From Mesonia hippocampi (GTDB lineage Bacteria > Bacteroidota > Bacteroidia > Flavobacteriales > Flavobacteriaceae), in the NCBI RefSeq assembly GCF_014197445.1, contig NZ_JACIFO010000001.1:186001-250000 (forward strand): a stretch of DNA of 64,000 nt, written 5' to 3'. The number at the start of each line of letters is the position of its first letter. Position 1 is the first letter of the stretch. The position numbers and the translations under genes are program-made. Shown here in pieces: positions 10,522-33,476 of this stretch. The notes under the pieces were generated by a model. That model searched no databases. It was given only the letters and a program-made list of their open reading frames with translations, and was not told the DNA's origin.

Positions 10522-10550
10522 TTGTTTTAACGTAGAAAGTTATATATTTG
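10522..10550 (+). promoter_or_regulatory. Putative promoter ahead of element A, locus 1
   Basis: TTG (10522) - 18 nt - TATATTTG (10543-10550) fits the flavobacterial -33/-7 consensus. It would give a ~110-nt leader containing element A before the ATG at 10665. A TATATTTG is found at the matching place in locus 2 (33190-33197). Confidence 0.5.
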
Positions 10551-10568
10551 AAACTGATAGTTTAACTT

Positions 10569-10596
10569 AAATCGTCATATCCGTCAGGGCGTTGTG
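10569..10596 (+). repeat. Element A, locus 1 copy
   Basis: 28 bp containing CATATCCGTCAGGGCGTTGT. The same 28 bp occurs once more, on the minus strand at 33133-33160, with one mismatch. In both places exactly 68 nt separate it from the first downstream ATG. Confidence 0.8.
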
Positions 10597-10821: not shown

Positions 10822-11760
10822 ATGAAAAAACTAATCACACTTTTTTTACTAACTATCTTTCATTTCCAATCTTGTAGTGGACAGAATAAAGAATTTGTAC
10901 GATTTGTAGTTCAACCAGAAGCAGAAGTCGGGAAGTCTATTTTGTTCAATATATATTTTGAACAAAAGCCAGACAGTATAATTGTTGCCAGCAACTATGT
11001 TGACGGATTGGAGTTGACCTATAATTTAGACGAAATTTTGAAAAGAATTTCTAGCAGTAATACCACAGATGAAAACGGTGAAATAATTCAAGCCTATTAT
11101 AGTTTTGAGAGCTATGCCGTTCCTACAAAAACAGGACGAATTGACCTTCCTGTTTTGACCGTGATACATGAAGGAAAAGAATATAAAAGCAAACCGTTTC
11201 ATATCAACGTAGTTGACAACATCACGATTGACCAAAACGACTTAAAAGTTAGTTGGACATCAGACAAAGCCACTTATAACAAAAACGATACTATTAAAGT
11301 AAGTCTGTATGAATACTCCCGATTTTTTGAAACTAAAAGAAAATACTTGCCTCCCGAAAACTTGCCATCGCTGAAAGGAAAAGAAAACGAAATTCATGTC
11401 GGTTTTGAAGAAACCATTGACAATATTGTAGGAATAGAGAATTTTGAAGAAATGATCGATAAAAATTTTGAGGTTGTACACTTTGATTGGAATCCGTTTA
11501 GAACACAAAAACAAACAATGGAATATATTGATAATATGCAATATATTAAAACAATGATTGCGGAATTTCATCTTTTAGCAAAATCCAAAGGCACATTTGA
11601 TATAGGCATCAGTGAATTTGAATTTTCATTATACAAAAGCAATACAGATTATTTTGACAATAGGTTTGTTCCTAATGACAATGGCACATATACTGTAACT
11701 GACAATGGAGCAACAAAGTTTAAAATAAAATCTAACGAACTAAAAATTAATGTAAAATAA
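10822..11760 (+). CDS. BatD-like lipoprotein, hypothetical
   Basis: 312 aa. The N-terminal lipoprotein signal MKKLITLFLLTIFHFQSCSG has a lipobox-like Cys at 18. The body resembles the N-terminal part of BatD/oxygen-tolerance proteins: VRFVVQPEAEVGKSILFNIY, then YAVPTKTGRIDLPVLTV and SKPFHINVV, followed by a second beta-rich domain. It is shorter than full BatD, and no BatA/B/C/E neighbours exist, so it is a stand-alone relative. It lies inside the repeat-rich accessory segment with repeat C just downstream. Function unknown. Confidence 0.65.
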   Translation: MKKLITLFLLTIFHFQSCSGQNKEFVRFVVQPEAEVGKSILFNIYFEQKPDSIIVASNYVDGLELTYNLDEILKRISSSNTTDENGEIIQAYYSFESYAVPTKTGRIDLPVLTVIHEGKEYKSKPFHINVVDNITIDQNDLKVSWTSDKATYNKNDTIKVSLYEYSRFFETKRKYLPPENLPSLKGKENEIHVGFEETIDNIVGIENFEEMIDKNFEVVHFDWNPFRTQKQTMEYIDNMQYIKTMIAEFHLLAKSKGTFDIGISEFEFSLYKSNTDYFDNRFVPNDNGTYTVTDNGATKFKIKSNELKINVK

Positions 11761-14583: not shown

Positions 14584-15395
14584 AACCACAGATTTTAAAC
14601 AGAAAAGGAGCTTTAAAAGCAGAAAATATTCCAACCGAAGTTTTGGAGTTATTGAATAACGGAAAAATTGAAACTGTGAATTTAACAGAATGGTTGATTG
14701 TAAATCATATTCAACTCATCAAAACCAATTTTTCGGGATTGGGAATTTCAAATTCAGCTATTGAAAAGGTTTTGAGTGAAATCCAAAATCAGAAAAAATC
14801 TTCAACAATGAACACCATAAAAGTTGTTGGCGAAATGCTTTACCAAGAATTGAAAGACAAAAAAGAGTTTGAAAATATCTTAGACAGTTTAAGCAATCAT
14901 CCGTCCGATTCTATTCGCTGTTATGCCCCGTATTTAATTTCGTTGAATGAAAAGCTAAAAATTCAAGAAAAATTAAACCAAGCCAAACCTTTGGTTGCCG
15001 ACAAGCATTTTGGCGTTCGTGAAATTGTTTGGATGGCTTTACGCCCAGAAATTGAAAAAAATCTTGAAGAATCAATTGTATTTCTAATCGATTGGACAAA
15101 AAGTGAAGATGAAAACATTAGACGCTTTACGACCGAAGCAACACGACCGAGAGGCGTTTGGTGTAAACACATTGATAGACTGAAAGAAAACCCCGAAATT
15201 GCTTTGCCTATTTTGGAACATCTAAAATCTGATACATCAAAATATGTTCAATACAGTGTTGGCAATTGGCTTAACGATGTAAGTAAATCTCAACCCAATT
15301 TCGTGATTGAACTCTGCAAAAAATGGCAAAAAGAATCTCCTGCAAAAGAAACCGAGAAAATTATCAAAAGAGCGAAAAGGACAATTGAGAAATAA
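14577..15395 (+). CDS. HEAT-repeat DNA alkylation repair protein (AlkC/AlkD-like)
   Basis: 272 aa, all-helical. Short helical repeats (DSIRCYAPYLI, HFGVREIVWMALRP, DENIRRFTTEATRPRGVW, KYVQYSVGNWLNDVSKSQP) match the COG4335-type alkylpurine glycosylases that excise N3/N7-alkylated bases. The conserved Trp/Asp/Arg positions of that group are present (EIVWMALRP, RPRGVW, GNWLND). It overlaps azoR (ATGGTAG junction), suggesting an electrophile-stress operon. Its stop codon lies directly before element B. Confidence 0.8.
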   Translation: MVEPQILNRKGALKAENIPTEVLELLNNGKIETVNLTEWLIVNHIQLIKTNFSGLGISNSAIEKVLSEIQNQKKSSTMNTIKVVGEMLYQELKDKKEFENILDSLSNHPSDSIRCYAPYLISLNEKLKIQEKLNQAKPLVADKHFGVREIVWMALRPEIEKNLEESIVFLIDWTKSEDENIRRFTTEATRPRGVWCKHIDRLKENPEIALPILEHLKSDTSKYVQYSVGNWLNDVSKSQPNFVIELCKKWQKESPAKETEKIIKRAKRTIEK

Positions 15396-15402
15396 AAGAA
15401 CT

Positions 15403-15466
15403 GCCTACAATCGAGTAGACGGATCCGTACCTAAATAGGTGCGGAGTTCGCCTCTCAATTATTTAT
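15403..15466 (+). repeat. Element B, locus 1 copy (palindromic)
   Basis: About 64 bp from GCCTACA to ATTTAT. The centre TCCGTACCTAAATAGGTGCG is part of a 22-bp near-perfect palindrome (ACCTA-AA-TAGGT core), followed by TTCGCCTCTCAA. The second copy is at 32389-32456 on the other strand. It begins 7 nt after the stop codon of the AlkD-like gene. There is no T-tail. Confidence 0.8.
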
Positions 15467-32388: not shown

Positions 32389-32456
32389 ATAAATAGTTGA
32401 GAGGCGAACTCCGTACCTATTTAGGTGCGGAGCCGTTTATTTGATTGGGTGTAGGC
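32389..32456 (-). repeat. Element B, locus 2 copy (palindromic)
   Basis: Read on the minus strand it matches the locus 1 copy from GCCTACA through the 22-bp palindrome (ACCTA-AA-TAGGT centre) to TTCGCCTCTCAA and TATTTAT. It begins 2 nt after the stop codon of the DUF6169-like gene. Confidence 0.8.
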
Positions 32457-32458
32457 TT

Positions 32459-32920
32459 TTATTTTTCTGTGGATTTTAAGTCTTTTTCTATCTTAAGTAA
32501 TAATTTGAAATTTTCTTTATGACAAATTAAGGAAGTATAATGATGTCCATTTTCAGGGTCATTTATTTTTATAGGTTTTTCTATGAAATCTTGTGAGTTT
32601 ATTTTCTCAAAAATTCTAGAAAATAGTTTACTCCTAAATTCCTGCGGAGTTATTTTTCGCTTCCTATTATTTCTTATAGTTATATTTGAGGTGTCACAGT
32701 AATAATATAATATCACATTATTCTCATTCAAATAATCCAATATTAATTGTGAAAATCTAAAAAATGTTTTTAAACTATTAATAGGAGTAATATCATCCAT
32801 CAAGATGATAGAAACATCAATTATTACAATTCCATAATCTCTGGGAGTATTACAAAATTCCTTAAAAACAATTAGGTATTTGTAACCCTCATCAGTTATT
32901 AAAGGAATCTCTTTTTCCAA
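32459..32920 (-). CDS. DUF6169-like protein
   Basis: 153 aa. The segment ILYYYCDTSNITIRNNRKRKI...FSRIF...PENGHHYTSLICHKEN matches my memory of DUF6169 (Y-x-CD-S...R-RKF...D-x-G--YISLI). Function unknown. It follows a 43-aa gene by 12 nt and is followed at once by element B, so the two genes are the whole cargo of this accessory unit. The two-gene layout of tiny basic protein plus ~150-aa protein recalls toxin-antitoxin pairs, but nothing in the sequence proves it. Confidence 0.65.
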   Translation of the reverse strand: MEKEIPLITDEGYKYLIVFKEFCNTPRDYGIVIIDVSIILMDDITPINSLKTFFRFSQLILDYLNENNVILYYYCDTSNITIRNNRKRKITPQEFRSKLFSRIFEKINSQDFIEKPIKINDPENGHHYTSLICHKENFKLLLKIEKDLKSTEK

Positions 32921-32932
32921 TATTAAAAGTAC

Positions 32933-33064
32933 TTATTTTGGAAAGTATAATTCTTTGTTTGAACGGTATTCAGACTTTCGTTCTTGCTTTTTAGAGCGTA
33001 AATCTCTTACAAACTCGAGTAACTCTTTAGAGGGTTTCGATATGTGAAGTCTTTTAGTTTTCAT
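32933..33064 (-). CDS. Small basic protein upstream of the DUF6169-like gene
   Basis: 43 aa beginning MKTKRLHISKPSKELLEFVR and rich in Lys/Arg, with one amphipathic helix (~11-30). It ends 12 nt before the DUF6169-like gene. Its ATG lies 68 nt after element A. No family recognised. Coding is supported by the tight spacing and the position right after the shared leader, not by homology. Confidence 0.55.
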   Translation of the reverse strand: MKTKRLHISKPSKELLEFVRDLRSKKQERKSEYRSNKELYFPK

Positions 33065-33132: not shown

Positions 33133-33160
33133 CACAACGCCCTGACGGATATGGCGATTT
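33133..33160 (-). repeat. Element A, locus 2 copy
   Basis: 28 bp, one mismatch to 10569-10596. Here the element is also the right arm of a small hairpin (CAACGC ... GCGTTG read on the minus strand). About 30 nt farther upstream the two loci again share an AAAGTTAT...ATATTTGA stretch. Confidence 0.8.
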
Positions 33161-33189
33161 GCGTTGAAGTGTGAACTTCAATATTCTCT

Positions 33190-33197
33190 CAAATATA
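33190..33197 (-). promoter_or_regulatory. Putative -7 box ahead of element A, locus 2
   Basis: TATATTTG on the minus strand, at the position matching the promoter of locus 1 (10543-10550). No clean TTG is seen at -33. It would give a ~120-nt leader containing element A. Confidence 0.35.
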
Positions 33198-33302
33198 GAT
33201 AACTTTTTAACAGTAAATACTTAATTACATATTGTATTTCACTGTTTTTACAAAGTACTTTGAAGGTGCTTCTAGTTTATGCCCAATGTTTTTATAAGAA
33301 AT

Positions 33303-33346
33303 ATTGGACACACCTTGGAGGTACATTGGACTCACCTTGTACTTAC
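33303..33346. repeat. Tandem 22-bp repeat, two units
   Basis: ATTGGACACACCTTGGAGGT.. and ATTGGACTCACCTTGTACTT.. lie end to end in the non-coding gap before the tRNA gene. No ORF of note covers them. Confidence 0.6.
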
Positions 33347-33476
33347 CTAAGGTTTTATAAAGATACTAAAACCCAGAAAATGTTCTTGAGCTCTCCCAAG
33401 ATGGCACAAATCTGACACAGCTTTTAAATGAAATAAGCCTTAATTATCATGTATTAGACAATTAAGGCTTATGCAG

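Follow-up and report, generated by a model that had tools for sequence, protein, structure and literature searches.

The locus lies in a window of 64,000 nucleotides, the whole stretch of DNA that was analysed, and consists of a small gene followed closely by a gene for a DUF6169-like protein, both on the minus strand and both enclosed by repeats. Its features are the following:

32389..32467, plus strand: LEFT, the downstream flanking hairpin repeat, cassette 3' boundary
32459..32920, minus strand: gene for a 153-aa diverged DUF6169 relative, the proposed toxin; TTG start, GNAT-like predicted fold
32921..32932, minus strand: spacer of 12 nt, in frame with both genes and of equal length in loci L056, L110, L113, L115 and L116
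32933..33064, minus strand: 43-aa basic small gene, the proposed antitoxin; ATG start, TAA stop; recognised by its reading frame, spacing and counterparts
33135..33181, plus strand: RIGHT, the upstream flanking repeat; the cassette 5' boundary was placed by eye between GGCG and TT on the minus strand
33174..33365, plus strand: second repeated module, overlapping RIGHT in AACTTCAA
33476..33550, minus strand: tRNA-Met, anchor of a variable spot, with the gene pair on the variable side

Both frames are real and open, the first running from 33064 to 32933 and the second from 32920 to 32459. They are separated by four sense codons that remain in one frame with both genes (TAA GTA CTT TTA ATA TTG). 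The original prediction had a 43-aa frame ending 12 nt before a gene of about 150 aa. The same prediction described the pair as the whole cargo between two elements, A and B, given without coordinates. If these are taken as the repeats at 32389-32467 and 33135-33181, the description is correct, and the pair is the sole cargo between LEFT and RIGHT. A promoter-like motif, TATATTTG, is found on the minus strand at 33190-33197 inside the second repeated module. Searches of NCBIfam and PHROGs returned nothing credible for the pair, the best PHROG match of the 153-aa protein (E 0.079) being of unknown function.

Copies of the flanking repeats recur throughout the genome. With weak matches and the window included, 43 were found for the right side and its neighbour and 19 for the left; the stretches read contain 23 copies of RIGHT and 11 of LEFT, again counting the window. 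Arrays in which cargo and repeat alternate are present on contig C1 at 399-455 kb (L018-L021) and on contig C8 at 33-37 kb (L022), and further copies are scattered across the genome outside the arrays. The window pair is a single cassette outside any array. Judged by eye, the repeats measure about 260-360 nt and end in GTT and AAY. Twenty proteins encoded behind repeats were scanned, and among them are three ParE and two ParD proteins, a DUF6364 protein with PIN, a Fic protein and an HTH protein, as well as a TdeIII restriction enzyme and two cytosine methylases. Other cassette cargo comprises P5CR (dimerisation domain), TetR and CrtO-like proteins, and some proteins gave no match.

The window itself holds a further copy of the upstream repeat at 10548-10596, with a 312-aa ORF behind it (10822-11760), and a further copy of the downstream hairpin repeat at 15387-15466. 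Elsewhere, a cassette protein of L024 (7016-7675) has no Pfam match, and that at 14461-14919 of L018 appears to be another uncharacterised cargo of the integron-like system.

Taken together, repeats and cargos look like an integron-like cassette system. They resemble integron attC cassettes in the arrays of small cargo between repeats, in the presence of an integrase-like recombinase in the genome and in the toxin-antitoxin cargo. The recombinase is a 589-aa tyrosine recombinase (C1:469815-471581) that scores 212.4 bits against the integron integrase model TIGR02249 and does not reach its cut-off of 265. Just past its stop codon lie 36 nt with a weak resemblance (E 0.04) to the window cassette's leader, and a weak link between integrase and repeats may be drawn from their shared genome and this short match only. 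The system differs from attC cassettes in the length of its repeats and in the sub-threshold integrase. Complementarity between the R' and R'' ends of a cassette is not significant: 31 matches were counted versus 27.8 after permutation, and a fraction of 0.27 of the 120 permutations reach 31, both ends having been set in five of the nine cassettes tried, the window's not among them. The integrase was searched at E <= 1e-100 in 60 genomes, its own included; the RIGHT repeat is found in its own genome and as one 37-nt match in one of the 59 others. Integrons do occur in Bacteroidota, and some two-gene integron cassettes are toxin-antitoxin systems, according to excerpts of PMC8618304. The excerpts of PMC8618304 and PMC8138268 describe no Bacteroidota cassette system of this kind.

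The assignment of the larger protein to DUF6169 is weak but real. It scores 24.2 bits (E 3.7e-5) against PF19666, aligning across most of the domain, and is called a diverged relative because this score lies below the curated Pfam cut-off of 27. With a profile of 17 relatives built independently of the window, it ranks first among the 177 window frames with at least 60 residues (E 3.4e-6; runner-up 0.094), so that the similarity proposed in the original prediction is upheld. Close relatives were not found by single-protein scans of genome contigs, viral contigs and plasmids, nor did four other DUF6169 relatives find any in viral contigs; four weak matches to phage records (E 0.01-0.2) were seen with the window protein. 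None of the PMC papers searched names DUF6169. The family is sporadic. Across the phylum it occurs at 12 places in 8 of the 395 genomes. The genome contigs hold ten loci, three of which (L058, L061 and L064) duplicate sequences of the phylum set and one of which (L060) is a near copy that is broken; in a single genus, 37 of 299 genomes carry the family. The 45 places in that genus comprise 29 new loci, one that is L049 again and 15 without a locus, which were left out.

An alignment of 44 sequences, from which the broken or truncated copies at L053, L060, L095, L113 and L117 and identical sequences were omitted, shows Y90, R102 and F106 in every member, the window copy included. At five other positions, which 42-43 of the 44 sequences conserve (F19, D66, T72, W109 and K120), the window copy differs from the consensus, and it carries an 11-residue insertion, a shorter N-terminus and a TTG start. 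In addition, its LEFT repeat is, by eye, cut short relative to the array copies. These features would suit a decaying remnant of a pair of this kind, an improbable reading given that both frames are open, that the 12-nt spacing and upstream layout of the related L056 clade are exactly kept and that the three invariant residues are retained. The window copy has nevertheless diverged, and its activity may be reduced or altered.

Is the small gene a regular companion of DUF6169? The original prediction suggested looking for its frame upstream of other DUF6169 genes, and there it was indeed found: in 49 of 51 loci, one of two small-protein profiles matches a frame that precedes DUF6169, within a zone reaching from 400 nt upstream to 120 nt downstream of the point where the DUF6169 match begins. 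The 51 loci include the repeat sequences L058, L061 and L064 and broken copies, and the profiles were built from rows of L046-L067, one of them also containing the window row. Of the 29 new loci, none of which was used in profile building, 27 are matched. The matches are weak in L110 and L113 (E 0.01), L112 (0.1) and L057 (0.03). No match was obtained in L095, whose sequence begins at the edge of a contig, or in L117, where the first half of DUF6169 is lost. Under a similar rule, a small frame also lies near the start of 17 out of 66 unrelated ORFs with a length of at least 150 aa; presence by itself therefore says little, and it is conservation that lifts the small frame above chance.

The pattern of substitution points the same way. 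In eight of eight pairs of relatives, drawn from ten sequences and therefore not all independent, silent change in the small frame (pS 0.46-0.99) far exceeds replacing change (pN 0.09-0.32), which was the outcome sought by the earlier proposal of a dN/dS comparison. Purifying selection on the small frame is thus supported in relatives, and some of the constraint near the 3' end of the gene may stem from its overlap with DUF6169. The spacing is shared as well: in the window, L056, L110, L113, L115 and L116 alike, a TAA stop is followed after exactly 12 nt by an in-frame start codon. Beyond DUF6169 the small protein is hardly seen. In the 395 genomes, a profile of type I finds seven places, six beside DUF6169, with the broken L053 among them, and the orphan L091, and a profile of type II finds two, both beside DUF6169. 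Seven of these nine places supplied profile rows, as themselves or as an identical copy, and the result therefore shows absence elsewhere more than new finds.

The window's own 43-aa protein ranks first among 172 window ORFs with a profile of types II and III (7.5 bits; 3 of 500 shuffles as good) and with that of type II (10 of 500 shuffles as good, 158 of 5000 in another set), and 20th with type III alone (117 of 500 shuffles as good). Its profile match is weak, and its kinship is therefore drawn mainly from position and spacing. The small frames span about 34-86 aa. Five of the proteins, the window's included, were scanned and gave no DNA-binding domain, no RHH/DUF1778 and no Pfam match over the cut-off: that of the window has no Pfam match at E <= 1, and the four others no RHH match, one of them having two weak matches to other families. 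From these comparisons of sequence, the small gene is in relatives a real, conserved partner of DUF6169.

AlphaFold2 models were obtained for the window protein (pLDDT 76.4, pTM 0.69) and, with high confidence, for the L058 relative (pLDDT 90.2, pTM 0.83). The two share their order of strands and helices, apart from a short strand and a short helix. Nearly all of the 50 best structural matches listed for the L058 model are GNAT acyltransferases by title, with phage Mu Mom (Z 8.3, 135 aligned) and DfoC (8.2) at the top and others at 7.1-8.0; Z 8 is reached by 7 of 998 chains, and a Z under 8 may reflect only a common arrangement. The window model has an RNase E subdomain as its first match (Z 8.1), followed by GNATs up to 7.3, and IF3 appears as well. 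In Foldseek against the PDB, the L058 model has no match at E <= 0.001 (best 1.2e-3), and in a viral structure library it has eight, mostly unnamed or uncharacterised phage proteins. Sequence searches against solved structures gave nothing credible (best E 0.058 and 0.11). The window protein and nine relatives were compared with Pfam at E up to 10, by a program that discards most weak matches; no acetyltransferase family was among the matches listed, and it is therefore the predicted structure that ties DUF6169 to the GNATs. The R/QxxGxG/A pattern, the acetyl-CoA motif of GNATs, is present in one of the 44 sequences (L057), where it follows the conserved W and is therefore not at the expected place. 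A GNAT-like fold without the usual acetyl-CoA motif is likely for DUF6169 from these models.

The resemblance to Mom brings up a two-gene anti-phage or DNA/RNA-modifying unit, composed of a Mom-like GNAT-fold modifier and a small translational or folding partner, the role that Com plays for Mom. The phage Mu com-mom operon likewise has a small gene preceding a GNAT-fold gene; here a small basic gene lies near or overlaps the start of the GNAT-like gene, Mom is the first structural match, and the cassettes also hold restriction and methylase genes. However, the Z score of Mom is level with those of ordinary acetyltransferases (7.1-8.2), the five small proteins have no Pfam match over the cut-off, no sequence link to com-mom was seen, and the only trace of the pair in PADLOC and PHROGs is the above match without a function. 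Such a modifying unit is accordingly quite unlikely.

The best single reading, to which we give slightly less than an even chance, is that of a type II toxin-antitoxin-like module with DUF6169 as the toxin, carried as one integron-like cassette. The typical type II layout (two genes, the small one first, close spacing) is found in 49 of the 51 loci. In such a module, the 43-aa basic protein would be the antitoxin, translated first and coupled to the toxin by stop and restart across the 12 nt. DUF6169 would use a GNAT-like acyltransferase fold to modify something in the cell, for instance charged tRNA, and binding of the small protein would block it and end the modification. These roles, together with the target, the binding and the coupling, are inferred from the layout, from the decay of some loci and from the company that the pair keeps. 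The earlier proposal of a toxin-antitoxin-like or defence unit is thus sustained in part: the pair is tight and conserved and sits alone between repeats that elsewhere carry toxin-antitoxin cargo, but PADLOC has no match for either window protein.

TacAT is a toxin-antitoxin pair of the GNAT-DUF1778 type, and the KacT and AtaT pairs of this type are like the present one in having two genes and in the predicted GNAT-like fold of DUF6169. Their toxins (150-245 aa in the excerpt of PMC9177977) fall into one length class with DUF6169 (about 153-170 aa). They differ in that RHH/DUF1778 is not matched in the five DUF6169-linked small proteins and in that the R/QxxGxG/A pattern is absent from 43 of the 44 DUF6169 sequences. 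Some GNAT toxins pair with DUF4065 instead of DUF1778, according to the same excerpt of PMC9177977, and exchange of the partner is therefore known.

Decayed loci offer a view of what happens when the pair breaks up. DUF6169 is broken with the small frame left open in L053 (frameshift), L060 (about 188 nt missing relative to L058) and L113 (internal stop), and in L091 the small frame is open and DUF6169 gives no match. Four of the five decayed loci have thus retained the small frame but no intact DUF6169; in the fifth, L117, the small gene is gone along with the first half of DUF6169. The asymmetry could be explained by gene length alone, DUF6169 being about three times longer than the small gene, in which case four breaks out of four there are expected at 0.75^4, about 0.32. 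Next to its orphan small gene, L091 holds on the opposite strand (781-1472, +) what by eye resembles a HigBA pair, made up of a 97-aa protein and an HTH-like one of 128 aa.

Two loci may be counter-examples to this asymmetry, with a normal small gene perhaps absent beside an intact DUF6169. By eye, L052 has ATT where relatives have the ATG of the small gene, and the first ATG of L067 lies only 34 codons from the end of the small frame. They would fit an accessory enzyme with a small subunit or chaperone, spread by mobile elements in an ordinary metabolic role and involving no toxin, and so would the metabolic cargo of other cassettes (the P5CR dimerisation domain and CrtO-like proteins) and the likeness of the predicted fold to many metabolic GNATs. 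A metabolic role sits less well with the sporadic distribution given above, in the phylum as in the one genus, and with the 12 loci viewed by eye, in which the pair lies among unrelated genes. We regard this explanation as unlikely.

Beyond the single locus, DUF6169 and its small gene may form an undescribed Bacteroidota toxin-antitoxin family, with a GNAT-fold toxin devoid of the motif and a minimal antitoxin in which no DNA-binding domain is recognised, moved here as a cassette with very long recombination sites; as a whole this proposal is doubtful. If true, it would give a function to an uncharacterised family found in 37 of the 299 sampled genomes of one genus, add a GNAT-like toxin with a very short antitoxin, and explain a small gene that annotation likely skips. 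Recombination sites of such length may be overlooked by integron tools, and the cassette setting makes the other uncharacterised cargo of this genome worth similar scrutiny.

The pair also occupies a variable spot. All 16 genomes of the genus, that of the window among them, retain the tRNA-Met and the adjoining SRPBCC gene. On the opposite side of the tRNA, the stretches read contain the pair in the window's genome and in none of the 15 congeners, where other frames occupy the spot. The content of the spot varies across these 16 genomes (L122-L136 and the window), and in L127 it includes, by eye, a ParD-like frame.
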